Notes under the pieces: generated by a model
Seen by the model: only the letters and a program-made list of their open reading frames with translations
What the model was told of the DNA's origin: nothing
The model's database searches: none
Assembly: GCA_003154775.1 (NCBI GenBank)
Contig: PMES01000150.1
Coordinates: forward strand, 1-34,221
DNA length: 34,221 nt
Origin: Acidobacteriota bacterium
Lineage (GTDB): Bacteria; Acidobacteriota; Terriglobia; Acidiferrales; UBA7541
Direction: 5' to 3'
Part shown: in pieces, positions 8,287-23,912 of the stretch
How positions within the stretch are numbered: the stretch's first letter is position 1
Layout of the letters: every line of letters starts with the position of its first letter
Program-made: the position numbers and the translations under genes

Positions 8287-8787
8287 ATGCCTCTTACCTC
8301 GAAGAAACCCCCTCTGCCCTCAGAGGACAAACGCTGGAGAATCGTCAACGGCACGATGCGACGCCATGGCTACGCCCGCGACGCCCTGATCGAAACGCTG
8401 CACACAGTACAGGAATCGTTCGGCTTCCTGGACAAGGTTGCGCTGCGGTTCGTAGCCGATTCGCTCCGCGTGCCGCTCAGCCAGGCCTACGGCGTGGCCA
8501 CCTTTTATCACTTTTTCACCATGAAGCCGCCCGGTGAGCACGTTTGCCTCATCTGCATGGGCACGGCCTGCTACATCAAGGGCGCCGGCGCGCTCCTGAA
8601 TGAGGCGCAAGCGGCTCTCGGCATTCAAGCGGGCGAGACAACCGCTGACGCCAAGGCTTCCCTGATGACCGCGCGATGCATCGGCTCCTGCAGCGTCGCT
8701 CCCGCGGTGGTTTTTGACGGAGAAACAATGGGGAACGTAGCGGGCAAGAACCTCCGCGAAAAACTGGCAGGATGGAGGCCCGCATGA
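8287..8787 (+). CDS. hoxE: HoxE, NuoE-like [2Fe-2S] subunit of bidirectional hydrogenase
   Basis: HoxE is the thioredoxin-fold [2Fe-2S] subunit of the diaphorase part of NAD(P)-linked bidirectional hydrogenases, homologous to NuoE of complex I. The 166-residue product has the cluster ligands C90 and C95 (CMGTAC, Cx4C) and C131 and C135 (CIGSC, Cx3C), with the family motif GVATFYHFF ahead of them. It is the first gene of the hox operon and overlaps hoxF by 4 bases (ATGA). The ATG at 8287 has only a weak upstream GGGA. The overlapping longer frame beginning at 8223 in another register is a shadow. Presence of HoxE gives the five-subunit HoxEFUYH layout known from cyanobacteria. Confidence 0.93.
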
Positions 8788-10427
8788 CCTTCGAGGAACT
8801 CGAACAGATTGCCGCTGAAACGCGCGAAAATCGGGAAAAGTCGCCCCGCGAATTGAATGTCTGCGTGGCGGCGGGCTGCCTTTCGCTGCACAGCGATGCG
8901 GTGAAGAAATCGCTCGAGGAAGAAGTGAAGCGAACGGGCGCCACGTGCCGCGTGCGCGGAACCGGTTGCATGGGCTTGTGTTCCCTGGGTCCGCTGGTCG
9001 CTTCCGAACCTTCCGGCCAGCTCTACAAGAGTGTGGCCGCTGCCGACGCCGCTGAAATCGTGAAGAACCTGGAAGGCGCTCCGGTGCCGCGGCTCTTGTG
9101 CTCGCGGGAGCAGCCCTTTTTTCAGCGCCAGAACCTGATCGTCTTGGAGAATTCCGGCCGCATCGATCCGGAAAAAATCGAGGAATACATCGCGGCAGAC
9201 GGCTACCGGGCTCTGGTCCACGCGCTCACGGAAGTGAACCCGAACGAAATCGTCCAGGAAGTCTCCAAGAGCGGCTTGCGGGGACGCGGCGGCGCCGGAT
9301 ATCCCACAGGCCTCAAGTGGGGCACGGTGTCAAAAACGGCCGGCACCACCAAGTACGTGATCTGCAACGCCGACGAAGGCGACCCCGGCGCGTTCATGGA
9401 TCGCAGCGTTTTGGAAAGCGACCCGCATCGCGTTCTGGAAGGCATGGCCATTGCCGCCTATGCGGTGGGCGCGACGCGCGGCTACATCTACGTTCGTGCC
9501 GAATATCCGCTCGCCGTGAAGCGCTTTGGCACGGCCATCCGCGAAGCTCGGCGGCTGGGTTTCCTGGGCAGCCAGATCTGCAACACCAAATTCAACTTCG
9601 ATATGGAAGTGCGCATCGGCGGCGGCGCCTTTGTGTGCGGTGAAGAAACCGCGCTAATCGCCTCCATCGAGGGACGCCGCGGCGCGCCGCGCCCGCGTCC
9701 GCCTTATCCCGCGCAAGCCGGACTTTGGGACATGCCCACCCTCATCAACAACGTGGAGACCTTCGCCAACATTCCCAGCATCGTGCGCCGCGGCGGCGAT
9801 TGGTACGCCTCCATCGGCACGAAGAAAAGCAAGGGCACCAAGGTCTTCGCTCTCACCGGCAAGGTGCGCAATGTCGGCTTGATCGAGGTGCCCATGGGAA
9901 CAACCCTCCGCCAGATCATTTATGAGATCGGCGGCGGCGGCCCCGAAGGCCACAAATTCAAAGCGGTGCAGACCGGCGGGCCTTCCGGCGGCTGCATCCC
10001 GGAACAGTTCCTCGATCTCTCCGTGGACTATGAATCGCTCCGGGAGCTCGGCTCGATCATGGGCTCCGGCGGCATGATCGTAATGGACGACAGCGCCTGC
10101 ATGGTGAACGTGGCGCACTACTTCATGGAGTTCTGCATGTCCGAATCCTGCGGCAAGTGCATTCCCTGCCGCTCCGGGACGGCCCAAATGTTCGAGCTTC
10201 TGACGCGCATGACCTTGGGCACCGCCACCGCTCGCGACCTGGAGCTCCTCGAGGAACTTTGCGACATGGTCAGCAGCACCAGCCTTTGCGGCCTTGGGCA
10301 GAGCGCGCCCAACCCGGTCCTCAGCACGCTGCGCTACTTCCGGGATGAGTACATCGAACACATCAACGAAAAACGCTGCCGCGCCGGGGTTTGTGAGTGC
10401 GGTTCCACTGTGGGGGTGACCGCATGA
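8784..10427 (+). CDS. hoxF: HoxF, NADH/FMN-binding diaphorase subunit of [NiFe]-hydrogenase
   Basis: HoxF holds FMN and binds NAD(P)H, and passes electrons to and from the hydrogenase through FeS clusters. The 547-residue protein begins with a NuoE-like [2Fe-2S] domain (C27/C32 in CVAAGC, C62/C66 in CMGLC). A NuoF-type domain follows, with the glycine-rich FMN/NADH motif [10 protein letters not shown] (167-176), [14 protein letters not shown] and a second glycine-rich stretch ([15 protein letters not shown]). The N3-type [4Fe-4S] ligands are [10 protein letters not shown] and the later TSLCGLG. The start chosen is ATG 8784, which shares an ATGA with the hoxE stop and has GGAGG five bases before it; ATG 8772 is an alternative adding four residues. 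Confidence 0.94.
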
Positions 10428-11143
10428 ATCCAGCGCCGTCCGTTAAAACATTAATGATCGATGGCAAAGACGTCAGCGCACGCGCCGACCAATCCATTCT
10501 GGATGCCGCGCGCGAAAACGCCATCCCGATCCCCACGCTTTGCCACCTCGACGGCCTCTCCGAAGCGGGCGCGTGCCGCCTCTGCCTCGTGGAACTCAAG
10601 GGCACTCCGCGGCTTCAACCGGCTTGTGTCACGCTGGTCGAGGAGGGCATGGAGGTCACCACGCAATCGCCGCGTCTGGAGAAGTACCGGCGCATGGTCG
10701 TGGAACTGCTCTTTGCCGAGCGCAATCATGTCTGCTCTGTCTGCGTTTCCAACAACATGTGCGAGTTGCAGGACATGGCCAAGCAGTTGGGCGTCACCCA
10801 TGTTCGCTTCCCTTACCGCTACCCCCGCCTGCCCGTGGACACCACCCACGAACGCTTCACCATGGACCACAACCGCTGCATCCTATGCACGCGTTGTGTT
10901 CGCGTGTGCACCGAGATCGAAGGCGCGCACACCTGGGGCGTTTTCGGACGCGGTGTGGACGCCCACTTGATCACGGATCTGGATATACCCTGGGGCACGT
11001 CGGATACCTGCACGAGTTGCGGCAAGTGCGTTCAGGTCTGCCCCACCGGCGCTCTCTTTGAAAAGAGCAAGGTGGGCATGCAGAGCCAGAAGAACCCTGA
11101 CTTCCTCAATTACCTCAACGAAATGCGGGAGATCGAACGATGA
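10424..11143 (+). CDS. hoxU: HoxU, NuoG-like ferredoxin subunit of bidirectional hydrogenase
   Basis: HoxU is the FeS relay between HoxF and the hydrogenase dimer. The 239-residue product corresponds to the N-terminal part of NuoG. It shows a plant-type [2Fe-2S] site (C40, C51, C54, C68), a His-Cys3 [4Fe-4S] site (H102, C104, C107, C113), and two bacterial ferredoxin motifs, [11 protein letters not shown] (152-162) and [11 protein letters not shown] (196-206). All ligands are present. The ATG at 10424 shares an ATGA with the hoxF stop and follows a G-rich stretch that can serve as ribosome binding site. It overlaps hoxY by 4 bases. Confidence 0.94.
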
Positions 11144-11673
11144 GCAAAGCGACCCTGGCGACGATCTGGCTGGACGGCTGCTCCGGATGCCACATGTCGT
11201 TACTGGACATGGACGAGCGGCTGATCGAACTCAGCCCGCAGTTTGAACTCGTCTACTCACCGCTGGTGGACGCAAAAGTTCTGCCGCGGAATGTGGACGT
11301 TGCGCTGGTGGAAGGTTCGGTGAGTTCCGATGAGGACGAACACAAGATCCGGCTGATAAGGTCGCGAGCGCGGATTCTGGTCTCGCTGGGCGATTGCGCG
11401 GTGACGGGCAACGTGCCGGCCATGCGCAACTCCTTTCCCGTGGACGCGCTGCTTCATCGCGTTTACATCGAAAACGCCACCCTACAACAGCAGGTTCCCA
11501 CCGAGCGCCTGCCCGTGCTTTTGAAGCGTGTGCGCCCGGTGCACGAAGTCGTGACCGTGGATGTGTTTGTGCCCGGCTGCCCGCCGTCGGCAGACACCAT
11601 CTATTCGGTTCTTAAAGAACTTCTGGCCGGTCGTGTCCCCGACATCGCCGCACTTTCACGTTTCGGAATCTAG
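11140..11673 (+). CDS. hoxY: HoxY, small subunit of NAD(P)-linked [NiFe]-hydrogenase
   Basis: HoxY carries the proximal [4Fe-4S] cluster next to the NiFe site. The 177-residue product is short, as in group 3 hydrogenases, and lacks a Tat signal peptide, so it is cytosolic. The proximal cluster ligands are C14 and C17 (DGCSGC), C86 (GDCAVTGN) and C147 ([10 protein letters not shown]). It overlaps hoxU by an ATGA, and hoxH follows after nine bases. The missing signal peptide and the diaphorase genes around it separate it from membrane-bound uptake (group 1) hydrogenases. Confidence 0.95.
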
Positions 11674-11682
11674 GGAAAACTA

Positions 11683-13110
11683 ATGGGAAAAACCATCACC
11701 ATCGATCCAATCACCAGAATCGAAGGCCACGCCAAGATCACCCTGCAATTGGACGATCAGGGAGAGGTGAGCGAGGCGTACTTTCACACCACGCAGTTGC
11801 GCGGATTTGAGAAGTTCGTGGAGGGCCGCCCCTACTACGAAATGCCCTATCTGATGGAGCGCATTTGCGGCATATGTCCCGTGAGCCATCTGCTGGCCTC
11901 GGCAAAGGCGTGCGATGCCCTGCTGGCCATGAAAGTCCCGCCGGCCGCCGGGAAACTCCGGCGCATCCTAGAACTGGCGCAACTCATTCAGTCTCACGCG
12001 CTGAGTTTCTTCTATCTTTCGTCGCCAGACTTTCTTATGGGGATGGATGCTGACCCCAAAGAACGCAACATCTTCGGCGTGGTGGCCAAGCATCCGGAAC
12101 TCGGACACGGGGGAATCCGGCTGCGGCAATTCGGCCAGCAGGTGATTGAAACGCTGGCGGGCAAACGCGTTCACCCGGGTTGGGTGGTTCCCGGCGGTGT
12201 GAATGAACCGCTGAGTGTCGAAAAGCGGGACAAGTTGCTGGCAGATATTCCCGAAGTCATTGAGATCGCGCAGAAAGCGCTGACCTGGTTCAAAAGAGAG
12301 CTCGAGAGTTTCCGCGAGGAGATTCGCACCTTTGCCAATTTCCCCAGCCTCTTTATGGGCCTGGTTACGGTTGATGAGCGCGCGGGCTTCTACGAGGGCA
12401 AGATCCGCTTCACGGATTCGCTGGGGAACATCGTGGCGGATAAACTCGAGGCCGCGCAGTACCAGGAATATCTGGGGGAAGCCGTCGAGCCGTTCACATT
12501 CATGAAGTTTCCTTACTACAAGCCACTGGGCTATCCCGACGGCATCTACCGCGTGGGCCCGCTCGCGCGGCTGAACCTGGTGGACAACTGCGGCACGCCG
12601 CTCGCTCAGCAGGAATGGGTGGAATTCCGTTCGCTGGAACGGAATGCGGTGTTGAGTTCTTTCCACTACCACTACGCGCGGCTGATTGAGATTCTTTTTG
12701 CCATCGAGCATATCCAGGAGTACCTGCTCGATCCCATCATCACGAAGAAGCAGGCCCGCTACACGGCTTCCCTGAACAACCTGGAAGGCGTCGGGTGTTG
12801 CGAAGCGCCGCGGGGCACGCTGATCCACCACTATCGCGTGGATGAGCAGGGCCTGATCACCTGGGCCAATCTGATCATCGCCACCGGCCACAACAATCTG
12901 GCCATGAACCGCGGCATCCTCCAGGCCGCGCGCCATTTCGTGCGCAGCGATAAGCTCACCGAAGGCATGCTGAATCGGGTGGAAGCGGTTATCCGCGCCT
13001 TCGATCCCTGCTTGAGCTGCTCGACACACGCCGACGGGCACATGCCGCTGCACCTCCGCCTGGTTTCGCCGGACGGCAAACTGCTCGATGAATTGCGCAG
13101 AACGCCATGA
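11683..13110 (+). CDS. hoxH: HoxH, catalytic large subunit of NAD(P)-linked [NiFe]-hydrogenase
   Basis: HoxH holds the NiFe active site that splits or forms H2. The 475-residue precursor has the N-terminal motif ERICGICPVSH with C62/C65 and the C-terminal motif DPCLSCSTH with C443/C446, the four thiolates that bind nickel and iron. After His449 lies a 26-residue tail, the extension that the maturation protease removes after nickel insertion. RIEGHAKI near residue 12 is also conserved. The start is ATG 11683 with AGGGA about 7 bases upstream, after a nine-base gap from hoxY. It overlaps hoxW by an ATGA. The motif details and neighbouring HoxEFU favour group 3d; tree placement would settle this. 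Confidence 0.95.
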   Translation: MGKTITIDPITRIEGHAKITLQLDDQGEVSEAYFHTTQLRGFEKFVEGRPYYEMPYLMERICGICPVSHLLASAKACDALLAMKVPPAAGKLRRILELAQLIQSHALSFFYLSSPDFLMGMDADPKERNIFGVVAKHPELGHGGIRLRQFGQQVIETLAGKRVHPGWVVPGGVNEPLSVEKRDKLLADIPEVIEIAQKALTWFKRELESFREEIRTFANFPSLFMGLVTVDERAGFYEGKIRFTDSLGNIVADKLEAAQYQEYLGEAVEPFTFMKFPYYKPLGYPDGIYRVGPLARLNLVDNCGTPLAQQEWVEFRSLERNAVLSSFHYHYARLIEILFAIEHIQEYLLDPIITKKQARYTASLNNLEGVGCCEAPRGTLIHHYRVDEQGLITWANLIIATGHNNLAMNRGILQAARHFVRSDKLTEGMLNRVEAVIRAFDPCLSCSTHADGHMPLHLRLVSPDGKLLDELRRTP

Positions 13111-13598
13111 TTCGTGCGCTTATCCTCGCTTGTGGTAACTCTCTTCGCGGGGATGACGCGGCGGCCTTGCATGTTGCCCGTGAGCTGCGTTCCGGCCTCT
13201 GTGAACCGGAAACCGCAATCCATTCTTCGACGCAGTGGACCCCTGAACTGGCCGAATCCATCAGCGCGGCCGATGTGGTCATTTTCGTGGACGCTTCGGC
13301 CGTTCTTCCTCCCGGCGCGGTGCAAACCCGGAAAGTCTCGCCGATCCCCGATGCGCCCGGCAGCTTTTCGCACCGATCCAGCCCCGCCGGCCTGCTCGCT
13401 CTCGCCAAGCGTCTCTACGAGGTGATTCCTTCGCGCGCCTTCCTGGTTACCATCGGCGCGCAATCGTTCGAGTTATCCGAGGAGCTCTCGGAGCCTGTGC
13501 GGCTCGCCATTCCAGAGGTCATCGAGCGGATCAAGGCGATTCTCTCCGGTATTTCCCTGCCGTCGGATGGACCGCGCGACCAAGCTGCTCCCTCCTAA
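13107..13598 (+). CDS. hoxW: Hydrogenase maturation protease (HoxW/HycI family)
   Basis: This protease cleaves the C-terminal tail of the HoxH precursor once nickel is inserted. The 163-residue product has the N-terminal family motif ACGNSLRGDDAAA with the metal-binding acidic residue, a second acidic position in FVDASA, and a histidine in FSHRSSPAGLL that matches the third nickel-sensing ligand. It overlaps hoxH by an ATGA, which assigns its substrate with good certainty. It is the last gene with a clear hydrogenase function on this strand; its end is about 113 bases before the likely start of the aminotransferase. Confidence 0.87.
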   Translation: MIRALILACGNSLRGDDAAALHVARELRSGLCEPETAIHSSTQWTPELAESISAADVVIFVDASAVLPPGAVQTRKVSPIPDAPGSFSHRSSPAGLLALAKRLYEVIPSRAFLVTIGAQSFELSEELSEPVRLAIPEVIERIKAILSGISLPSDGPRDQAAPS

Positions 13599-15022: not shown

Positions 15023-15148
15023 ATGCTCAGTCAGTTCCTGACAAGGATTCCTACGATCGGCACCATTCCGGACGTGACGCCATATTCCGTGCGAACGAAA
15101 TTCCGCAAGTCATTCGGCAGTCCTTCAATGGTGCGGTGGCATGGGTGA
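15023..15148 (+). CDS. Possible 41-residue leader peptide overlapping the cytochrome start
   Basis: An ATG at 15023 opens a 41-codon frame that ends at TGA 15146-15148, inside the first codons of the tetraheme cytochrome gene, an 8-base overlap. The predicted peptide (starting MLSQFLTRIP) is basic and resembles nothing I recognise. The ribosome binding site is weak. It could be a translational-coupling leader or chance; conservation would decide. Confidence 0.2.
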   Translation: MLSQFLTRIPTIGTIPDVTPYSVRTKFRKSFGSPSMVRWHG

Positions 15149-15614
15149 ATTCAAGGATATCGCCCATCTCATCAGGCTGGCGGGCGTCTTCCTGCTCGGG
15201 CTGATCTTCTTCCTTGTTTTCCGGTCGGTGACCATTCCAAAGAGTTTTGGGCGGTACGGCCCATTTCGCGGCGCGGCCCTCGTGGAGCTCAGTTCGCGGC
15301 CCCTGTCCTTTGCGGGGCACGCGGCCTGCGAGAATTGCCACCCCGATGTTGCTGCGCTGAAAGCGAATGGGGTCCATAAGTCCCTCAACTGCGAGTCGTG
15401 TCACGGACCGCTTGCGAAGCACGCCGATGATCCAGGCAACGTCAAGCCAGTTTTGCCGGATGTAGCGCAGCTTTGCATCCGTTGCCATTCGGAAAATATC
15501 GCCAAGCCGGCAGGCTTCCCGCAGGTGAATGCAAAAGAGCATTCCGGTGGGCAGGCCTGCAACACATGCCACCAACCGCATAGCCCGGGTTTTGACGCGG
15601 GAGGCAAGAAATGA
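15141..15614 (+). CDS. Membrane-anchored tetraheme cytochrome c
   Basis: The 157-residue product has one N-terminal membrane segment (about residues 12-28) and four CxxCH heme-binding motifs at 63-67 (CENCH), 84-88 (CESCH), 112-116 (CIRCH) and 140-144 (CNTCH). Several extra histidines (H60, H79, H94, H134, H147) can act as distal ligands, so bis-His low-spin hemes are likely. Without an evident signal peptidase site it is probably anchored facing the periplasm, as in NapC/NrfH or small multiheme donors. It overlaps the next gene by an ATGA. Together with the ferredoxin and NrfD genes it should form an electron relay between the quinone pool and a periplasmic partner; direction is unknown. Confidence 0.92.
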   Translation: MGEFKDIAHLIRLAGVFLLGLIFFLVFRSVTIPKSFGRYGPFRGAALVELSSRPLSFAGHAACENCHPDVAALKANGVHKSLNCESCHGPLAKHADDPGNVKPVLPDVAQLCIRCHSENIAKPAGFPQVNAKEHSGGQACNTCHQPHSPGFDAGGKK

Positions 15615-16342
15615 TCTTGAACCGCCGGCAAATTCTGCTTTTGCTTCCGGCCGCAGCCGTCGCCTGGGACTCTGTTCTCGCCGACAACCCGGAAGGTTCG
15701 CCCAACTATAAGATGAGCGAACACTGGTGGGGCATGCTCATCGACATCACCAAGTGCATAGGGTGCGGGAGTTGTGTGCGCGCCTGCGAAATGGAAAACG
15801 ATGTTCCGGAAGGCTACTTCCGAACCTGGGTCGAGCGCTACCACGTCTCGGACTGGCACATCGAAAATCCCGAAGTGGATTCACCTAACGGAGGAATGGA
15901 TGGTTTTCCCCCGGGCAAAGCGGAAGGTGGCAAGAACTTCTTCGTGCCCAAGATGTGCAACCACTGCGTCGATTCGCCTTGCTCCCAGGTGTGCCCCGTT
16001 GGCGCCACCTTTCATACGCCCGATGGCGTGGTGCTCGTCGACTACGATTATTGCCTGGGCTGCCGCTATTGCATCCAGGCCTGTCCTTACGGATGTCGTT
16101 TCTTCCATCCCAAAAAACATACCGCCGATAAATGCACGCTCTGTTATCACCGCATCACGAAGGGCCTGACCACTGCCTGTTGCGAAGCATGCCCCACGGG
16201 CGCGCGGCAATTGGCAGACTTGAAGAATCCCAACGATCCGATTCACGCCTTTCTGAAGACGCACTCAGTGCAAGTCTTGAAGCCGCATCTCGCGACGGGC
16301 TCGAAGCTGTTCTACAACAGCCTCGACGGCTCGGTCCGGTAA
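15611..16342 (+). CDS. Tat-exported 4x[4Fe-4S] ferredoxin, NrfC/HybA/DmsB-type electron transfer subunit
   Basis: The 243-residue product starts with a twin-arginine-like signal (NRRQILLLLPAAAVA) and has sixteen cluster cysteines in four groups: C49/C52/C55/C59, C116/C119/C124/C128, C148/C151/C154/C158 and C175/C178/C191/C194. This is the layout of the FeS subunit of NrfCD, PsrB, HybA and DmsB. It would carry electrons between the NrfD protein in the membrane and the tetraheme cytochrome on the periplasmic side. The ATG at 15611 shares an ATGA with the cytochrome stop, with GGGAGG seven bases before it. No molybdopterin or hydrogenase catalytic subunit of this type is adjacent. Confidence 0.93.
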   Translation: MILNRRQILLLLPAAAVAWDSVLADNPEGSPNYKMSEHWWGMLIDITKCIGCGSCVRACEMENDVPEGYFRTWVERYHVSDWHIENPEVDSPNGGMDGFPPGKAEGGKNFFVPKMCNHCVDSPCSQVCPVGATFHTPDGVVLVDYDYCLGCRYCIQACPYGCRFFHPKKHTADKCTLCYHRITKGLTTACCEACPTGARQLADLKNPNDPIHAFLKTHSVQVLKPHLATGSKLFYNSLDGSVR

Positions 16343-16355
16343 GGAAGAAGAAGTC

Positions 16356-17531
16356 ATGGAAGGATTCATGTATCCCAATGAGGTAGAGCTCCAGTGGGGC
16401 ATCCTCATTGTTCTCTATCCTTTTCTCACCGGTCTGGTCGCCGGTGCCTTCATCCTGGCGTCTCTCGAGCGGGTGTTTCGCGTGGAGGAAGTGAAGCCAA
16501 CGTACCGGCTTTCCTTGCTTACGGCGCTGGCTTTCCTGATCGTTGCCCCGCTTCCCTTGCAGCTTCATCTTGGCCATCCCGAACGCTCGCTGGAGATGTA
16601 CCTGACGCCGCATCGCTCATCGGCTATGGCGATGTTCGGATTTGTTTATCTTTGGTATCTGATGGCCGTGCTGGTGGTGGAAATCTGGCTGGATTACCGC
16701 CGCGACATCGTGCGCCTGGCCGAATCAAGCCGCGGCGTGAAAGGCCTCCTCTACCGCGCACTCACTCTTGGTTCGTATAACATCAGTCCCGCCGCGTTGC
16801 GAATCGATGACCGCGTGGGATGGATTATCACCCTCATCGGCATACCTTCCGCATTTCTTCTGCACGGTTACGTCGGCTTTATTTTCGGGTCGGTGAAAGC
16901 GAATCCCTGGTGGTCCACTCCACTCATGCCGGTCGTGTTTCTCTTCTCCGCGATGGTTTCCGGCATCGCCCTGGTCCTTTTGATGTACATGGTTACCAGC
17001 GCGATGCGCCGTGTCGCCGTCGACATGCGTTGCTTGGACACCATTGCCAAATATCTTTTCTATACGTTTGTCATTGATTTCGCGCTGGAAATGCTGGACC
17101 TCATTCACCGCATCTACGAATCCGATGAATCGTTCCGCAGCCTCGATTTCATGGTGCACACCCGGCTTTTCTATTCGCAGATTCTGATTCAGATTTTCCT
17201 GGGCACCTTGGCGCCTCTGGCGCTCCTCAGCCTCACCCAAATGATCACTTTTCCCGCGGCCGCTCGCCGGCGCATCTACGCGATTGCCTCTGTTTTGACG
17301 CTCGTGGGCATCTTTGCCATGCGGTGGAACGTCGTGATCGGTGGACAACTCTTTTCGAAGAGCTTTCTCGGCTATACAACCTACAAGGTTGGTTTTGTCA
17401 CCCGCGAGGGACTGCTGCCGGCGGTGGCCCTGATGATACTTCCCTTTGCCATCCTCTATGTGCTGATCAAAATCCTTCCACCCTGGCAGGAGGAAAGCCC
17501 TTTTGTCGCCGAGGCGCACGGTGACGATTGA
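16356..17531 (+). CDS. nrfD: NrfD/PsrC family quinone-interacting membrane protein
   Basis: The 391-residue product is very hydrophobic, with about nine membrane helices (the first at residues 14-37, the last near 365-383), and shows the NrfD family pattern, for example LQLHLGHPERSLEM after the second helix. NrfD/PsrC proteins bind quinone and pair with a four-cluster ferredoxin on the periplasmic face, which is the gene immediately upstream (13 bases away). GGAAGAAG before ATG 16356 is a good ribosome binding site. Some NrfD-type proteins conduct protons, but this cannot be read from the sequence here. Confidence 0.92.
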   Translation: MEGFMYPNEVELQWGILIVLYPFLTGLVAGAFILASLERVFRVEEVKPTYRLSLLTALAFLIVAPLPLQLHLGHPERSLEMYLTPHRSSAMAMFGFVYLWYLMAVLVVEIWLDYRRDIVRLAESSRGVKGLLYRALTLGSYNISPAALRIDDRVGWIITLIGIPSAFLLHGYVGFIFGSVKANPWWSTPLMPVVFLFSAMVSGIALVLLMYMVTSAMRRVAVDMRCLDTIAKYLFYTFVIDFALEMLDLIHRIYESDESFRSLDFMVHTRLFYSQILIQIFLGTLAPLALLSLTQMITFPAAARRRIYAIASVLTLVGIFAMRWNVVIGGQLFSKSFLGYTTYKVGFVTREGLLPAVALMILPFAILYVLIKILPPWQEESPFVAEAHGDD

Positions 17532-17599: not shown

Positions 17600-19990
17600 T
17601 TGCGTTTGACTTCCCTCGGCTGTCAGACTAATCCTACTTCCGTGGATAGGACAACTACTTCCCAAGCCGATTTGCGCGGCATCGCGCAAGCTCCACGGAT
17701 AGTGCTGGCCGTTCTGATGCTGGTCGGCTTTACCGCCGTGATCGCGCAGATTGTTCTGATGCGCGAACTGATGGTGGTTTTCTGCGGCAATGAGATGTCC
17801 CTTGGTCTCATGCTTGCGAGTTGGCTCCTCTGGACGGCGATCGGCAGCAGCGGGCTGGGCCGCGTGGCCTCGCGGACACCGCAGCCTCGCCGGCTCATGG
17901 CTCTCCTCGAAGTGCTCGTCGCCCTCGCTTTTCCCCTGGCGATTTTCATGGCGCGCGCAAGCAAGGGAGCCTTCCAGTCCGTTCCGGGAGAAATCCTGGG
18001 GCCGGGGCCGATGATCCTCACTTCCTTGGTGGTCTTGAGTGCTTTCTGTTTGCTCTCTGGCGGTCTGTTCGCTGTGGGCAGCCGGCTCTTTGCCCAAGAA
18101 GCGGACACCTCCACGATGGCAGGCACAAGCAACGTCTACCTACTGGAAGCGCTTGGTTCGGGCCTGGGCGGAGTTCTCGCTAGTCTGCTGCTGATCCGTT
18201 ACTTCACGAGCTTCCAAATCGCCGCCCTGCTGTGCCTGCTGAATTTCTTGGGTGCCGCAAGCCTCACGATTCGCTCAGGGCCACGCCGCAGAGCGGCCGG
18301 GCTGGCGCTGGTTGGAGTTTTCGTGTTCCTGGTGCTCCCCTTCGGCTGCCCATGGCTCGAAAAGATGTCACTCAAGCGCCTGTGGAGCGGCTTCGAGCTG
18401 GTTGCCGCGCGCAATTCCGTTTACGGCAACTTGGCTGTCGTGCAAACCCAAGGCACCCGCAGCCTCTTTGAGAATGGCTTGGCCGCCTTCCATGTGCCCG
18501 ACCCTGCGGCCGCCGAAGAGGCGGTGCACTTTGCCTTGCTCCAGCACCCCGCGCCGAAGAGCCTCCTCCTCATTGGCGGCGGCGTGAACGGGAGTCTCTC
18601 CCAGGCGCTCCAGCACCCCAGCCTGGAGCGGATTGATTACGTGGAGTTGGATCCGGCCGTGCTGAATCTGGCGCAGGAATACTTCCCCGCGGCGTGGGCG
18701 GCGCTGCGCGCGGACCAGCGCGTCCATGTCCACAACACCGACGGCCGGCTCTTCCTGAGAACGACGAATCTCAGGTTTGACGTTCTCATCGTCAATCTGC
18801 CGGAGCCGCAGACTGCGCAGCTCAACCGCTTCTACACACTCGAGTTTTTCCGGGAGGCGGCCAACAAGCTCACCCCCACGGGCGTTTTCTCGTTTCAATT
18901 GAAAGCGTCGGAGGATTACATCAGCTCGGACCTGGCCGAATTCCTCCGCTGCATCGACAAAACCCTGCGGCAGGTCTTTCCGGAAGTCGCCACCATTCCC
19001 GGCGACTCAGTTCATTTTTTTGCTGCGGCTCGAGCGGGAAGCCTCACAAATGATTCCCAGGAACTCATCGCCCGGCTGCGCGCCCGGCACATCACTACCA
19101 GCTACGTGCGCGAGTACTATCTTCCCTACCGCATGATGCCGGACCGTATGCTCGATCTCGAGTCGCAGATTCGTCCTGACGCGGATACGCGCACCAACCG
19201 TGACTTCACGCCTATCGCCTACTACTTCGACGTGGCCCTGTGGAGCACACGGTTCAACGGCGCGTACCGCCGCGTGTTTCAGACTATGGCCGCGGTACGC
19301 TTCGGCCCACTCGCAACGTGGCTCGCGTTGGTCCTCTTTGGGCTCGTTGCACTTCTACGCTGGCTGCCGGCCACAGAGAATCGCTCGCGAGCCAGCGCGG
19401 GTTTTTGCGTCGCCGCGATGGGGTTTACTCTGATCGGCCTGGAGATGCTGCTTCTGCTGGCATTCCAGGCCATTTATGGCTACGTCTACCAGCAACTCGC
19501 GATCATCATTGCAGGCTTCATGTTGGGCATGACTTTGGGGAGCCGCTGGGGACTGCGTGCCGCTGCTCTTGCCACCGGCCCGCGAGACGCCCGCCGCCTC
19601 TTCCGCTTGCAATTGCTCGCCGCCCTCTCCCCCGTGTTGCTTTACCTGCTGTTCGACGCGCTGGCCGCGATCAAAAGCCCTGCCACCGTTTTCCTGGCGA
19701 GCCAGATAATGTTTCCCGTGCTGGCGGTTTTGTGCGGCTTGTTCGGGGGCTATCAATTTCCAGTGGCGACGCGAATCTTTTTTTTAAGCTCGAATCGCAA
19801 AGCAAGCGGTCCCGGGACGCTCTATGCCCTGGATTTGGCGGGCGCCTGTGTGGGCGCGGTTGTTCTCAGCTCGTATCTGGTTCCTGTTTTTGGCTTCCGG
19901 GAAACGGCCTGGCTTATGGCTGTGGTGAACCTGGCGCCGGCGGTCCTGGCCGGCCTGCTGGCTTTTGGAAAACAGGGTGTTCCGGTGTAA
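17600..19990 (+). CDS. Polytopic membrane protein with embedded spermidine synthase-like (SAM-binding) domain
   Basis: The protein is about 796 residues with roughly seven membrane helices (from about residue 32), a soluble domain of about 250 residues, then seven more helices. The soluble part has a Rossmann SAM/dcSAM-binding motif (LLIGGGVNGSL, about residue 320), an acidic strand end (YVELDPAVLNLA), and a position equivalent to the spermidine synthase catalytic loop that reads NLPEP (about 399-403) instead of the usual Asp-containing DxxDP. Polyamine synthase activity is therefore doubtful. Similar fused membrane proteins occur beside multiheme cytochrome genes in other phyla. The start is uncertain: TTG 17600 or GTG 17642. 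It begins 68 bases after nrfD, and its 3' end overlaps the convergent MEMO-AMMECR1 gene by 77 bases. Confidence 0.85.
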   Translation: MRLTSLGCQTNPTSVDRTTTSQADLRGIAQAPRIVLAVLMLVGFTAVIAQIVLMRELMVVFCGNEMSLGLMLASWLLWTAIGSSGLGRVASRTPQPRRLMALLEVLVALAFPLAIFMARASKGAFQSVPGEILGPGPMILTSLVVLSAFCLLSGGLFAVGSRLFAQEADTSTMAGTSNVYLLEALGSGLGGVLASLLLIRYFTSFQIAALLCLLNFLGAASLTIRSGPRRRAAGLALVGVFVFLVLPFGCPWLEKMSLKRLWSGFELVAARNSVYGNLAVVQTQGTRSLFENGLAAFHVPDPAAAEEAVHFALLQHPAPKSLLLIGGGVNGSLSQALQHPSLERIDYVELDPAVLNLAQEYFPAAWAALRADQRVHVHNTDGRLFLRTTNLRFDVLIVNLPEPQTAQLNRFYTLEFFREAANKLTPTGVFSFQLKASEDYISSDLAEFLRCIDKTLRQVFPEVATIPGDSVHFFAAARAGSLTNDSQELIARLRARHITTSYVREYYLPYRMMPDRMLDLESQIRPDADTRTNRDFTPIAYYFDVALWSTRFNGAYRRVFQTMAAVRFGPLATWLALVLFGLVALLRWLPATENRSRASAGFCVAAMGFTLIGLEMLLLLAFQAIYGYVYQQLAIIIAGFMLGMTLGSRWGLRAAALATGPRDARRLFRLQLLAALSPVLLYLLFDALAAIKSPATVFLASQIMFPVLAVLCGLFGGYQFPVATRIFFLSSNRKASGPGTLYALDLAGACVGAVVLSSYLVPVFGFRETAWLMAVVNLAPAVLAGLLAFGKQGVPV

Positions 19991-21509
19991 GGGGTTCCGG
20001 AACCTTGTGTTCGTCAAAGACGATTGCCGAAAACGCATAGATGTCGGTCGCCTTGTCCTGCCAGGCCTGGCGAGTGAGCCCGGCTTTTCTGCCCAATTCC
20101 TCAAGGTAGGTTTTCCGGTCCCAGCCCTCCTCGGTCGGCACTTGTGGAAGAAAGATTCCCTCGTTGCGGCCCTGAATCATCAGCAGCCCGTCCCGGCCCA
20201 CGTGGATCTCCTTGACGTCCAACACCCGGCGGAACGGCGTGAGGACGGAGATCTCGTATTCCAATTCCGGAAGTTCCCCGGCGTTCACCGGAGGAAACCG
20301 CGGATCACGCAGCGCCGCGTAAGTGGCGGCATCGCGCACGCCGAGATAAAGCGGCTTCTCCGCCGTAATCAGACCAATGCACCCGCGCAGCTCTCCTTTT
20401 TCCTTGAGGGTTACAAACACGCCACGCTCTTGCAAGAAGGCCGCGAACTCGGAAGCCGCCGGCTCGTACAATTTATTTTCCCGGACCGCCGTCTCCACCG
20501 ACTTCTTCGCCAACTGGATCAGGGCGTCTTTCTCTTTTGAACCGAGAGAAAACGACTCCGCCTCGGCCGCGTGGTTCTGCGTCTGTAGCAAGGCCACCGC
20601 ACCGTAGCCCACCACTCGGCTGCGGTCGCCGGTCACATCGCCGGTATTCGCGTACTTCAGGATTTTGGCCTGGTTGGCTCCCAGTCGCTCGGCCGCGATC
20701 ATGGTGGCCACAATGGGACCTCCACCGCAAGCCTCCCAAATGCGCGACTCGAAGTTGTGGGACAAACTGAGGTAATCCCACTCCGCGATGGCCTTCAATA
20801 CCTTCTGGTCGAGTTTCGTGGCTTCGTCGTAAGTGTGGTAATGCGATAGATCGGAGCTGGCCACGATGAGCGTGCTTGTCCCCGTCCCTTTGAGCATTTT
20901 GGCGAGCGCAAGCCCGAGGGCTCGCTCCGTCTCATAGTTCTGCTCGCCCATCACGATGGGAACCAGTTTGAAGTCACCCAGCACGCGCTGCAAAAAGGGG
21001 AGCTGCACCTCGAGGGCATGCTCTCCCTGTTGCTGGGTTGGCGTGTGGCCGCGGCTGGAAAGCTGGATAAGAGGGTTCAACTTGGCCAGCTTGGCAGCGA
21101 ACTCCTTGTCCACCGCGACATTTCCGAGCGGCGTGGCATACGCATCGCCGTCGTAAACCGAAACGAACGGGAAGGCCTCGAAATGAGAGGGGGCAATCAC
21201 CACCACCCGCTCGAACTTTCGGCCTTTCAGCAGCGCATAACTGTGCGCAGCCACCTTGCCGGAATAAATGTAGCCCGCGTGCGGCGCAATCAGCGCCACC
21301 AAATTCCCCGGAAGTGGTGGCACCGCGGCCTGAGCCAGATAGTCATCCAGCATTCGCCGGAGTTCTTCGGGTTGCGCGGGGTAAAATTGGCCGGCAACGG
21401 CCGGCTGCCGGATCGAGGGCTTCTCATCGGCAAGCCTGCCATCGCCCGATAGCTGGCCGCCGAAGAAAACGCACAAGGGGAGTATTGCCCAAAACAATCT
21501 TTTTCTCAT
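19914..21509 (-). CDS. AmmeMemoRadiSam system proteins B and A fused (MEMO1-AMMECR1), with export signal
   Basis: The 531-residue protein has an N-terminal basic-hydrophobic segment (MRKRLFWAILPLCVFFGG) typical of a signal peptide. A MEMO1-type domain follows (about 35-310), with candidate metal ligands in APHAGYIYSG (H77), APSHF (H109), SSDLSHYH (H223) and ACGGGP (C261). Next is an AMMECR1 domain (about 325-505) with the conserved GELRGCIG (372-379) and a Pro-rich tail. MEMO1 is related to extradiol dioxygenases, and the human protein is reported to bind metal. The biochemical role of this bacterial set is not known. ATG 21509 is preferred; GTG 21518 adds three residues. It is the last gene of a three-gene operon, 40 bases after the radical SAM gene. 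Confidence 0.88.
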   Translation of the reverse strand: MRKRLFWAILPLCVFFGGQLSGDGRLADEKPSIRQPAVAGQFYPAQPEELRRMLDDYLAQAAVPPLPGNLVALIAPHAGYIYSGKVAAHSYALLKGRKFERVVVIAPSHFEAFPFVSVYDGDAYATPLGNVAVDKEFAAKLAKLNPLIQLSSRGHTPTQQQGEHALEVQLPFLQRVLGDFKLVPIVMGEQNYETERALGLALAKMLKGTGTSTLIVASSDLSHYHTYDEATKLDQKVLKAIAEWDYLSLSHNFESRIWEACGGGPIVATMIAAERLGANQAKILKYANTGDVTGDRSRVVGYGAVALLQTQNHAAEAESFSLGSKEKDALIQLAKKSVETAVRENKLYEPAASEFAAFLQERGVFVTLKEKGELRGCIGLITAEKPLYLGVRDAATYAALRDPRFPPVNAGELPELEYEISVLTPFRRVLDVKEIHVGRDGLLMIQGRNEGIFLPQVPTEEGWDRKTYLEELGRKAGLTRQAWQDKATDIYAFSAIVFDEHKVPEPLTPEHPVFQKPAGRPGPPAPGSPQP

Positions 21510-21549
21510 AGTCTTCACTCACAGCGCACGAAGTGCGCGTCAACTTCCA

Positions 21550-22821
21550 TCATTGCCACACGCCCGCGATGGCTTGTTGGCAGTATTCGCATTTCCCTTT
21601 CCGAAGGTGCATCTCTTTCACCGTGAAACCAATCCGTTCAATGACGATACGGCGGCACTTGGGGCAATACGTGTTTTCCGCCGCGTTTCCGGGTGTGTTG
21701 CCCAAATACACGTAGTGCAGGCCCTCGGCGTCAGCAATGGCTTTCGCGCGTTCCAGCGTCTCCAACGGCGTGGGCGGAAGATTCTTCAGCAAGTACTGCG
21801 GGTAAAAACGCGAGAAGTGCAGCGGCACTTCCGCACCCAGGTTCGCTTTGACCCATTGCGCCAGCGCGCGAAACTCCGCGTCGCTGTCATTCAATGTGGG
21901 CACCACCAGATACACGAGCTCGGTCCACATTCCCAATTTGCGCATCGTGACCAGCGCTTCAAGCACCGGCTTGAGTTCTCCGTTGACAACCTCTTTGTAG
22001 TACTTCTCCGAGAACGCCTTCAGGTCCACCTTGATCGCATCCACGCCCTGACACAGCTTCTTGAGCGGATCCTGCTGGATGAACCCGCCGCTAACGACCA
22101 CGCTCTTGATTCCCAAAGCATGGCCTGCTTCGGCGGCGTCGCGCATGTACTCATAGAAAACGACCGGTTCGCTGTACGTGTAAGCGATGGCCGGGCAGCG
22201 ATTTTGCTGCGCCAGACCGGCGAGCTCCTTGGGTGGCAAATAGGTGTTGCGAACCTGCTCCGGCCGGGATTGCGAGATATCCCAGTTCTGACAGAATTTG
22301 CAGTTCACGTTGCAGCCCGCGGTGGCTACTGAAAACGCCAGAGTCCCGGGACAAAAATGGAACAACGGTTTCTTCTCGATGGGATCGATGTGCGCGGCGC
22401 ACACGCGCGAATGCACCAGCGTGTAGTAGCTGCCTCCGCGATTCTCGCGGACTCCGCAGTAGCCCCGCTCCTGATCGTCGATCACGCACTCGCGGGGACA
22501 CAGCTTGCAGCGCGTTTTCTTGTAGGGCAGCTTTTCGTAAAACTGGGCCTCGACGATAAACCGCGAATCCTCCGCGGGCGCCGAGCCAGCACCCAGAGCA
22601 AGGCTGGGCCATCCCGCCACGCAAGAACTCACGCAAGCCGTGAGGCAAGGAACGCCGGCCATCTTCAGGAACGTTCTGCGATCGTGCTCCGTCGCTCCAA
22701 GGCTGCTCAGAGAGGCGAGCACGGAGTCACAAGGCAGCGCGTCGTTGGCGTCTTGCTCGCGGCGAAGCCCCTTAGGTGAAAAACTCTCTTCGCCTTTGCG
22801 CATATGGGATGTTTTCGACAT
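21550..22821 (-). CDS. AmmeMemoRadiSam system radical SAM enzyme with Tat-like N-terminus
   Basis: The 423-residue product carries the radical SAM motif C170/C174/C177 (CNVNCKFCQNW) and the following SEPVVFYEYM region typical of PflA-like activators. Four cysteines precede it (CKLC at 105-108, C112, C122), and a C-terminal zinc-ribbon-like pair is visible (CPKC and CEYC). The first 80 residues are extra: they contain DRRTFLK at 47-53 followed by a hydrophobic, small-residue stretch, an almost perfect twin-arginine signal, although it is set unusually deep. Radical SAM enzymes need cytosolic SAM and a reductant, so export is puzzling. It lies 20 bases after the DUF362 gene and 40 before the MEMO-AMMECR1 gene. 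Confidence 0.9.
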   Translation of the reverse strand: MSKTSHMRKGEESFSPKGLRREQDANDALPCDSVLASLSSLGATEHDRRTFLKMAGVPCLTACVSSCVAGWPSLALGAGSAPAEDSRFIVEAQFYEKLPYKKTRCKLCPRECVIDDQERGYCGVRENRGGSYYTLVHSRVCAAHIDPIEKKPLFHFCPGTLAFSVATAGCNVNCKFCQNWDISQSRPEQVRNTYLPPKELAGLAQQNRCPAIAYTYSEPVVFYEYMRDAAEAGHALGIKSVVVSGGFIQQDPLKKLCQGVDAIKVDLKAFSEKYYKEVVNGELKPVLEALVTMRKLGMWTELVYLVVPTLNDSDAEFRALAQWVKANLGAEVPLHFSRFYPQYLLKNLPPTPLETLERAKAIADAEGLHYVYLGNTPGNAAENTYCPKCRRIVIERIGFTVKEMHLRKGKCEYCQQAIAGVWQ

Positions 22822-22841
22822 AGCAGGTATCTCGCGGAGGT

Positions 22842-23837
22842 TCAGACCTCCACCTGTTCAATCTGGCCTGGGTCATTCGTCCCCAAGCGGTGATTCGCAT
22901 CCGCGGCCGTCGCGATGTAATCGGGCGCTCGCCCAATAGCCCGCAGCGATTTCATGCCTTTCTCGGCCCTTTTTTGCTCCAGGATTTGCCATCCGGTGTA
23001 GTCCAAGGCAACCGGGTCCCGCGACATCAGCAGTCCGTTGTAAGGCCAAGTCCATTGCGGCATGTACGAGGGCCCGCCCTCGTATTGCGCCGTGGTCGCA
23101 TCGCAAATGTGCAGCCGGACTTTTTGCCGAATGGGCGGCAGCATATTGACGTCGGCGACGTACGGATCGCCGATGTTGAGGTGATACTTATTAGGGTTGT
23201 GGATGGCGCCGAACATATTCTTCAGCGCCATGGTCACGCCGGCAATTCCATGGTCTTTGAGCACGGGCAGGTTGATGACGGCATCGCATACCTGGGTGAG
23301 GGTCTTCGATAAGCAACTGCCCACGCTCCCGTAGATCGCGAGCTCTTCTTCGTAGCCCAGCGTGTCGTTGCCGAAACATCGCATGTGATCCTGGCGCGTG
23401 GCGACGCGGAATCCCGCGCGTTCCAGGTCCGCATTCAGCCGGTCCCAGATGATGATGTCTTTCTGCGGGATGCCGGCGTCTTGCAGTCGCGCGCATACGA
23501 CCTCGACCAGAAGCACGCTCGTTGAAATGCCCCGGCCGGCAAGGCCGTTGACCTTCAGCCCCACCACTTCGCCGGGCTGCGCCACTTTCTTCCAGGCTTC
23601 CAGGGGAGAATCCGTCGCGTAAAGAGCCTGCACGGCGCGATCCAGCATTTTCAAAAGCCGGCCGGAGTCCAAACTTGAACCCGTTCCGCGGAGAAGCGGA
23701 TCACGCGCGTACACTACTTTGGTTTTTTCCCGTGTGGAGAAAAAGGCGGGGAGCCTATGCGTTCCTCCCGCGAGCATCGCTCCCGCGGCACACTTCTTGA
23801 GGAACTCCCGTCGGTTCGGTTCCAGCCTCTGCCTCAT
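22842..23837 (-). CDS. DUF362 domain protein with Tat signal
   Basis: The 331-residue product begins with a clear twin-arginine signal (NRREFLKKCAAGAMLAGG) and has the DUF362 family pattern, including LPVLKDHGIAGVTMALKNM and an NPNKYH element. DUF362 proteins have no settled function. Many occur with ferredoxins, but no ferredoxin motif is present here. ATG 23837 is preferred because it places the twin arginines at residues 9-10 and because the upstream in-frame TTG (23912) coincides with a likely promoter. It is the first gene of the operon with the radical SAM and MEMO-AMMECR1 genes, so the three products are probably used together, all at or beyond the inner membrane. Confidence 0.85.
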   Translation of the reverse strand: MRQRLEPNRREFLKKCAAGAMLAGGTHRLPAFFSTREKTKVVYARDPLLRGTGSSLDSGRLLKMLDRAVQALYATDSPLEAWKKVAQPGEVVGLKVNGLAGRGISTSVLLVEVVCARLQDAGIPQKDIIIWDRLNADLERAGFRVATRQDHMRCFGNDTLGYEEELAIYGSVGSCLSKTLTQVCDAVINLPVLKDHGIAGVTMALKNMFGAIHNPNKYHLNIGDPYVADVNMLPPIRQKVRLHICDATTAQYEGGPSYMPQWTWPYNGLLMSRDPVALDYTGWQILEQKRAEKGMKSLRAIGRAPDYIATAADANHRLGTNDPGQIEQVEV

Positions 23838-23883: not shown

Positions 23884-23912
23884 CTTTTACCACTTTGCGA
23901 TGCGGGGGGCAA
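23884..23912 (-). promoter_or_regulatory. Candidate promoter of the DUF362-radical SAM-MEMO operon
   Basis: On the minus strand TTGCCC (23912-23907) and TAAAAG (23889-23884) are 17 bases apart; each matches four of six consensus positions. Initiation near 23877 would give a leader of about 40 bases to ATG 23837. Confidence 0.35.

Follow-up and report, generated by a model that had tools for sequence, protein, structure and literature searches.

A Candidate Extracytoplasmic AmmeMemoRadiSam System in an Acidobacteriota Bacterium

Introduction

Radical S-adenosylmethionine (SAM) enzymes are regarded as cytosolic, since that is where SAM and low-potential electrons are found. The locus described here may be an exception. 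It lies on contig PMES01000150.1 (34,221 nucleotides; assembly GCA_003154775.1) of an Acidobacteriota bacterium, the whole of which was analysed and is referred to as the window, and it is related to the AmmeMemoRadiSam systems, which are composed of an AMMECR1 protein (TIGR04335), a MEMO protein (TIGR04336) and a radical SAM protein (rSAM; TIGR04337). As in those systems, all three components of the window score above the family cut-offs and are encoded in adjoining genes. The window differs in that its products carry export-type N-termini, MEMO and AMMECR1 are fused into one protein, and two further genes are added, encoding a DUF362 protein and a membrane protein referred to as SPD. In contrast, the other set in the same genome is scattered and signal-less. 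For Memo-Ammecr1 systems, PMC7159879 cites the work of Burroughs et al. (J Biol Chem, 2019).

Other described systems resemble single components of the locus. The rSAM core is like that of the pyruvate formate-lyase (PFL)-activating enzyme and other glycyl-radical activases, and differs from it by additional N- and C-terminal four-Cys motifs and an export signal. SPD shares the nucleoside motifs GGG, ElDP and DgR with the fused major facilitator superfamily (MFS)/spermidine synthase family NF037959 and with aminopropyltransferases (7xif, 1uir), from which it differs by an N-L-P-x-P sequence, a 7+7 arrangement of transmembrane (TM) helices, a domain predicted to lie outside and a tie to exported rSAMs. 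The DUF362 protein partially matches the LarA superfamily of nickel-pincer nucleotide racemases (TM-score by query, 0.40–0.48). Finally, proteins that resemble transmembrane electron conduits of the DsbD/CcdA type, and NosR, contain DsbD_2 or DsbD_2 + FMN_bind + Fer4_5; they are neighbours of some relatives of the locus and are not present in the window.

Judged from sequence, the locus probably specifies an AmmeMemoRadiSam system that operates outside the cytoplasm, with a rough probability of 0.68. The exported group to which its rSAM belongs appears to use two export routes, has kept its catalytic residues and is bound by phylogenetic profile to SPD, with its SAM-type nucleoside site, so that radical SAM chemistry outside the cytosol becomes directly testable.

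The Locus and Its Export Signals

The three core genes are transcribed from the minus strand in the order DUF362, rSAM and MEMO-AMMECR1 fusion, separated by 20 and 31 bp. SPD is convergent (tail-to-tail) with the fusion, and their 3′ ends overlap by 77 bp. The features are as follows:

22842–23837, minus strand: DUF362 protein with a Tat signal and a partly LarA-like predicted fold (PF04015, 72.1 bits, cut-off 24; TIGR01409, 23.1 bits; AlphaFold2 (AF2) model)
23739–23837, minus strand: twin-arginine translocation (Tat) signal of DUF362, which begins MRQRLEPNRREFLKKCAAGAMLAGG (direct reading and TIGR01409 match; signal end estimated)
21550–22821, minus strand: radical SAM enzyme, exported branch of AmmeMemoSam_rS (TIGR04337, 370.8 bits, curated cut-off 220; PF04055, 68.1 bits, cut-off 29.5; placed in the exported group of the trees)
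22576–22821, minus strand: rSAM N-terminal extension with a Tat-type signal, residues 1–82, end estimated (DRRTFLK followed by an uncharged stretch)
22456–22509, minus strand: four Cys of a conserved N-terminal motif (C105, C108, C112, C122), invariant in 103 exported and 48 signal-less rows
22291–22314, minus strand: radical SAM motif CNVNCKFC, a CxxxCxxC (C170, C174, C177), its Cys invariant in the same 103 and 48 rows
19914–21518, minus strand: MEMO-AMMECR1 fusion with a Sec-type signal (TIGR04336, 291.4 bits, cut-off 26; TIGR04335, 169.7 bits, cut-off 99; H80, H112, C264)
21411–21518, minus strand: secretory (Sec)-type signal region of the fusion, residues 1–36 (translation; best 11-mer hydropathy 2.50)
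20592–21410, minus strand: MEMO domain of the fusion
20016–20525, minus strand: AMMECR1 domain, with LRGCIG at fusion residue 377
17600–19990, plus strand: SPD, a 14-TM membrane protein with a central SpeE-like domain (NF037959, 67.9 bits, cut-off 40, the sole match to this model in the genome; co-occurrence)
18344–19306, plus strand: SpeE-like domain of SPD, about residues 249–569, predicted outside (hydropathy and positive-inside counts)

The initial annotation, which was made from the DNA letters and their translations, had proposed an operon of DUF362, radical SAM and MEMO1-AMMECR1 genes whose products all appear exported. This gene set is real, with its families above curated cut-offs, and the observation that its three products carry export signals also stands. 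SPD and the signal-less second set had been missed. The DUF362 start is an ATG, and its open frame extends further, to a TTG at 23912; the fusion starts at a GTG, with an alternative ATG at 21509. The closest named relative of the rSAM (L096) is from a Solibacteraceae metagenome-assembled genome (MAG), with 74% identity over the domain.

Export-type N-termini on DUF362, rSAM and the fusion are confirmed in the translations, and they recur in relatives. DUF362 has the reported NRREFLKK, and its match to the Tat hidden Markov model TIGR01409 exceeds the cut-off of 16.7 bits. The rSAM has DRRTFLK at residues 47–53, as had been claimed; it reads as an RR-x-F-L-K motif followed by a moderately hydrophobic region (best 11-mer hydropathy, 1.91). 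The fusion starts VKTMRKRLFWAILPLCVFFGGQLSGDG, which agrees with the hydrophobic, signal-type N-terminus ascribed to it. A Tat translocase is encoded in the genome (TatC, 196 bits). For the initial interpretation as a whole, the evidence lends partial support; for export of all three products, the sequence support is good.

Signal-Bearing rSAMs Form One Deep Group

Relatives of the rSAM were sampled from 60 stretches of genomes of the phylum, the 30 best phylum-wide matches and the best 80 named public loci. The public scan took as its query 21 aligned exported-type rSAM domains, signals removed, and returned more matches than the best 80, which lean to the exported group because of this query. 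Signals were called by the authors' own rules, with a Sec threshold of 1.9 for partner proteins versus 2.0 for rSAM. By rule, the 171 rSAM frames comprise 88 Tat, 11 Sec/TM and 72 without a signal. Five rows were reclassified by eye (L124 to Sec; L060, L061, L155 and L166 to Tat), giving 91 Tat, 12 Sec/TM and 68 signal-less. At E ≤ 1, TIGR01409 matched 38 of the 103 exported N-termini and none of 33 signal-less upstream frames, these being the rows, out of 48, with an upstream open frame of 22 codons or more. Another 20 homologues from a weaker score band (about 275–325 bits) had neither a signal (0/20) nor an SPD within 1.5 kb (0/20).

In a tree of 150 rows, built on the domain with its signal removed, a branch with a support of 95 (Shimodaira–Hasegawa-like approximate likelihood ratio test, SH-aLRT) separates 45 signal-less rows from 105 others, of which 102 have a signal and three do not. 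This tree omitted 21 rows (16 near-duplicates of canonical rows plus L049, L130, L135, L138 and L157), and for this reason trees were rerun with all 171 rows and with 20 more. In the 171-row tree (mixture model), one side holds all 103 signalled rows with six signal-less ones, and the other 62 signal-less rows (support 62). The split is unchanged with 191 rows: the 103 signalled rows and the same six versus 82 unsignalled (support 60). Without the reclassification by eye, the 171-row tree requires nine rather than five changes. Taken together, export is shown, at the level of predicted signals, to be the mark of one deep group within the rSAM family.

Six signal-less rows thus fall within the exported group. 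The contig end truncates L138, L130 is ambiguous, and L143 and L164 have no signal. In the MAG loci L135 (upstream of 5444) and L146 (upstream of 2458) a hydrophobic, signal-like stretch lies off-frame, immediately ahead of the rSAM domain, as would follow from a frameshift of the assembly or of the gene. In L164, from Bacteroidota, both the rSAM and the MEMO-AMMECR1 fusion lack a signal, perhaps through a joint return to the cytosol.

The group is taxonomically broad. Among the best 80 named loci, the 55 with a signal represent 20 named phyla, including Bacteroidota, Planctomycetota, Myxococcota, Omnitrophota, Latescibacterota and Chloroflexota, plus candidate groups lacking phylum rank. One is archaeal, from an Altiarchaeota MAG (names as in the records). 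The check suggested with the initial annotation, conservation of the signal in orthologues, therefore comes out positive across phyla, with 103 signalled rows. No conserved downstream start that removes the signal, named there as grounds for dismissal, is present: an ATG within the 28 codons ahead of the first domain Cys is found in 28 of 103 exported versus 58 of 68 signal-less rows.

Catalytic Residues of the Exported rSAM

Fifty-eight sites are at least 95% conserved in the 68 signal-less rows, and in the 103 exported rows 52 of these remain conserved at a level of at least 90%. The retained sites include CxxxCxxC, the four N-terminal Cys and four C-terminal Cys. They also include the TYxEP and DxK motif positions, taken here, from the PFL-activase fold, to be SAM-binding. 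No site is fixed for differing residues between exported and signal-less rows at the 85% level. An AF2 model of a CxxCH-type relative has a core predicted local distance difference test (pLDDT) score of 94.6, falling to about 60 at the CxxCH loop, and best matches PFL-activating enzyme (3cb8/3c8f; TM-score by target, 0.81). On these residues and this model, the exported enzyme looks catalytically competent.

Partner Proteins and an Internal Control

The export signal is shared with the MEMO partner. A Sec-type start is present in 48 of 50 uncut MEMO proteins next to exported rSAMs versus none of 12 next to non-exported ones. The two exported-side MEMO proteins without a call are L095 and L102, and three more are cut by contig ends. 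The fusions of L135 and L138, whose rSAM starts are broken or cut, do bear a signal.

The putative metal ligands of MEMO had been given as H77, H109, H223 and C261. The residues are real, and counted from the GTG they become H80, H112, H226 and C264, since the earlier numbering began at the Met of codon 4. One correction concerns H223: in human MEMO1 (PMC11081632), the ligands are H49, H81 and C244, and H192, with which H223 aligns, does not bind metal. Exported MEMO domains keep H80 and H112 in 50 of 50 rows each, three gapped rows being set aside, and C264 in 52 of 53.

Among 40 uncut DUF362 neighbours, 24 have a called signal; the DUF362 of the window was scored separately and is not one of the 40. 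Fifteen of the 16 without a call form part of one 18-row clade of the phylum of the window, in which the usual gene order is DUF362-rSAM-SPD; the sixteenth (L076) has an RR motif overlooked by the rule. The AF2 model of DUF362 (pLDDT 94.8) has 13 PDB matches at E ≤ 0.001, 12 of them titled as LarA-like, lactate or malate racemase and the thirteenth (4nar) titled merely as a Thermotoga protein. The best LarA-superfamily match has E = 1.9e-6 and a TM-score by query of 0.44, and is partial. According to PMC11770544, DUF362 and DUF2088 belong to one Pfam clan, CL0471. The genome also encodes a LarC-type nickel insertion protein (PF01969). With the modelled likeness to LarA, this makes a nickel-pincer cofactor a possibility for the system.

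The same genome contains a second, signal-less set as separate genes, with rSAM on contig C125, MEMO on C102 and AMMECR1 on C130. Its MEMO (L004) has no signal, and the set serves as an internal control. Because one genome holds both inside and outside copies of the same system, it offers a fresh handle on human MEMO1 and AMMECR1, proteins of unresolved molecular function.

SPD, a Fourth Component

When neighbouring genes were clustered, SPD ranked second, behind the rSAM alone, and was found at 55 exported and no signal-less loci. Since signal-less loci L006–L035 have flanks of just 1.5 kb, proximity was retested at equal flanks: SPD lies within 5 kb at 37 of 55 exported versus 0 of 21 signal-less loci, and within 3 kb at 43 of 72 versus 0 of 23. 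Gene orders vary and include rSAM-MEMO/AMMECR1-SPD, MEMO/AMMECR1-SPD-rSAM, DUF362-rSAM-SPD and convergent arrangements.

The association also holds at the level of whole genomes. Across 149 genomes of the phylum with at least 90% completeness, SPD was counted at E ≤ 1e-60, leaving weaker relatives uncounted, and exported-type rSAM was called by a bit-score gap (484.7 versus 455.3) rather than by reading of the signal. Both occur in 43 genomes (rSAM full length in 41 and truncated in two), exported-type rSAM alone in two, SPD alone in none and neither in 104. These counts ignore kinship among the genomes, some of which contributed sequences to the search profiles A1 and A8. Thus, all 43 SPD-bearing genomes have exported-type rSAM versus 2 of the 106 without SPD, and 53 of these 106 carry rSAMs of lower-scoring types only. 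The two genes occupy separate contigs in 13 of the 43. Within this phylum, SPD is shown by these sequence counts to be tied to the exported rSAM group.

Topology was counted in 52 of the 55 members of the SPD family, three short rows being omitted. The helices are arranged 7+7 around the central domain, and predicted inner loops hold 19.7 Lys + Arg per protein versus 2.0 in outer loops, with inner exceeding outer in 52 of 52. From this positive-inside charge of the flanking loops, the central domain is predicted to be outside. Polyamine aminopropyltransferases are homologues of this domain (best match 7xif, at 134.5 bits), which retains the three nucleoside-site motifs. SPD points to a possible family of SAM-handling membrane proteins.

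Relatives with CxxCH Motifs or Sec-Type Signals

Two kinds of relatives bear on the side of the membrane at which the enzyme works. In ten rows, a CxxCH is found 22–27 residues ahead of the first domain Cys and is followed in all ten by a second His, a combination seen in 0 of the 89 other rule-called signalled rows. The rSAM of the window has no CxxCH. The 150-row tree unites nine of these rows in a single clade (support 95). Haem c attachment occurs outside the cytosol; if the motif binds haem, the whole protein would therefore be outside.

The second kind comprises the 12 Sec/TM rows. All 12 have an n-region of net positive charge, and in 10 it is more positive than the next 15 residues. 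A CcdA/DsbD-type gene, or a CcdA-FMN_bind-Fer4_5 fusion, is near the rSAM at 10 of 12 Sec/TM loci versus 1 of 85 Tat loci, where divergent versions may have been overlooked, as the genes were recognised by BLAST clusters. Pfam was checked on one representative of each type, which gave DsbD_2 and DsbD_2 + FMN_bind + Fer4_5, respectively. As a Sec-type rSAM would be translocated unfolded, such a redox conduit may replace the preformed cluster given by Tat. Together, the predicted Sec/TM relatives beside CcdA/DsbD-type genes and the CxxCH relatives argue for an enzyme that works outside.

One further CxxCH was observed in L159 (1657–1815), in the open frame that immediately precedes the Met of the rSAM, which is from Geobacteraceae. 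Among the 33 control frames, one matched the NrfH and NapC models; it is presumably the frame of L159, which may be a fusion or remnant.

Proposed Mechanism and Alternatives

In the proposed mechanism, the rSAM, MEMO-AMMECR1 and DUF362 would form a module around SPD on the outer face of the inner membrane. Tat would carry the rSAM out folded, its cluster already in place; for Sec-type rSAMs, the adjacent CcdA/DsbD-type protein would give reductant for cluster assembly or turnover. Electrons would come from periplasm-facing carriers, such as the attached c-type haem in one group and the CcdA-FMN-Fe/S fusions in another, and in the window perhaps from the cytochrome, Fe-S and NrfD genes listed in the last section. 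SPD would supply or move SAM, or use the rSAM product. The substrate may be a small molecule, or a cofactor, that resides within or close to the membrane or in the envelope. If true, AmmeMemoRadiSam radical chemistry may proceed outside the cytosol. The full combination is held more tentatively than the extracytoplasmic reading of the locus, at somewhat under even odds: radical SAM catalysis outside the cytosol, with an SPD nucleoside site outside that holds or moves SAM; a cluster reduced by periplasm-facing redox partners (attached haem c, CcdA-FMN-Fe/S conduits or NrfD-type complexes); and a product processed by MEMO-AMMECR1 and DUF362.

Several observations weigh against an extracytoplasmic system. 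To our knowledge, no SAM pool or SAM exporter of such a kind exists outside the cytosol. TIGR01409 recovers just 38 of 103 signalled N-termini, and that of the rSAM in the window scores 14.4 bits (E = 0.037), slightly below the cut-off; its n-region is long, with 46 residues ahead of D47. A D-x-L-P motif ahead of the RR pair (residues 27–32) is common to this rSAM and L058, L059, L074 and L096, and suggests that the long n-region is truly translated. Support for the split is weak with all rows, falling from 95 (150 rows) to 62 (171) and 60 (191), and the 171-row tree places the ten CxxCH rows in a 16-row group (82) with six non-CxxCH rows (L111, L130, L135, L136, L138 and L146). The CxxCH...H could alternatively be a zinc site. 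No SPD lies within 5 kb at 18 of 55 exported loci, and genomes G098 and G138 have exported-type rSAM without SPD at the E ≤ 1e-60 threshold. In SPD, the Asp-Leu-Thr-Asp-Pro of aminopropyltransferases is replaced by Asn-Leu-Pro-x-Pro (consensus of 52 rows; N-L-P-E-P in the window), so that the Asp of the D-x-x-D-P motif, which we take to be the catalytic one of spermidine synthase, is absent. Lastly, with 16 of 40 uncut DUF362 neighbours lacking a called signal, not all components are exported in every case.

The chief rival is an enzyme that completes its chemistry on a partner or bound substrate before leaving the cytosol, the compartment that offers both SAM and low-potential electrons; Tat would then export it together with that partner or substrate, as a spent or carrier protein. 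The Tat pathway exports folded, cofactor-loaded proteins, most signalled members (91 of 103) are Tat-type, and the DUF362s without a signal would find a place in such a scheme. The initial annotation had raised a similar route, with folding inside followed by Tat export; it fits the Tat-type relatives, but not the 12 Sec/TM-type members, which would leave unfolded, nor the CxxCH group. The CcdA-type redox neighbours, the SpeE-like domain predicted outside and the near-perfect co-occurrence with SPD in the phylum also count against cytosolic action, which is considered unlikely. The SAM supply problem would be avoided if the exported protein were no SAM enzyme any more, its cluster having become a redox or structural centre of an outside electron-transfer complex, as the redox neighbour genes might suggest. 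This is improbable given that 52 of the 58 family-conserved sites are kept, TYxEP and DxK positions included.

Two further accounts dispense with export altogether. The N-terminal segments could be membrane anchors that keep the enzyme on the cytosolic face, and some signals are indeed long and hydrophobic, with no obvious cleavage site. The net positive n-regions of all 12 Sec/TM rows nevertheless predict an N-in, domain-out orientation, and partner MEMO proteins bear Sec-type signals, which leaves an anchor role very improbable. Otherwise, the RR motif and hydrophobic stretches could be remnants, as had been proposed for the former, or artefacts of wrong starts: the N-termini are known from sequence only, and L135 and L146 have their signal-like stretch solely in another frame. 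This reading was rejected and retains next to no credence, as the signals are conserved across phyla and concordant with those of the partners, no downstream start is shared, and the same rule called 0 of 20 in the further homologues.

The extracytoplasmic version preferred here was not found as a topic, nor was its tie to SPD, in the titles and abstract openings of open-licence PMC articles. The component families themselves are known, and in the literature consulted no biochemical function was found for the AmmeMemoRadiSam system. Burroughs et al. reportedly extended the gene contexts of Memo and are said to have suggested nucleotide-base and isoprenoid modification. Some of the neighbour genes may already appear there.

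Neighbouring Genes

Directly upstream of SPD is a set of genes that is not a recurrent neighbour of the family, known from Pfam matches and sequence:

15141–17531, plus strand: possible electron route
15141–15614, plus strand: CxxCH cytochrome
15611–16342, plus strand: 4Fe-4S protein with an RR signal
16356–17531, plus strand: NrfD-like protein

These three genes could supply electrons at the periplasmic face. At other loci, a DUF6599 protein with a signal-like start is encoded in L064 (8186–9106) and 12 other exported loci; the gene is mostly divergent from DUF362-rSAM-SPD, in one sub-group of the phylum. Further upstream in the window is a hydrogenase cluster (8772–13598, plus strand), which encodes a NuoF-like protein, an Oxidored_q6-type small subunit, a NiFe hydrogenase large subunit and a protein scoring slightly below the HycI cut-off.

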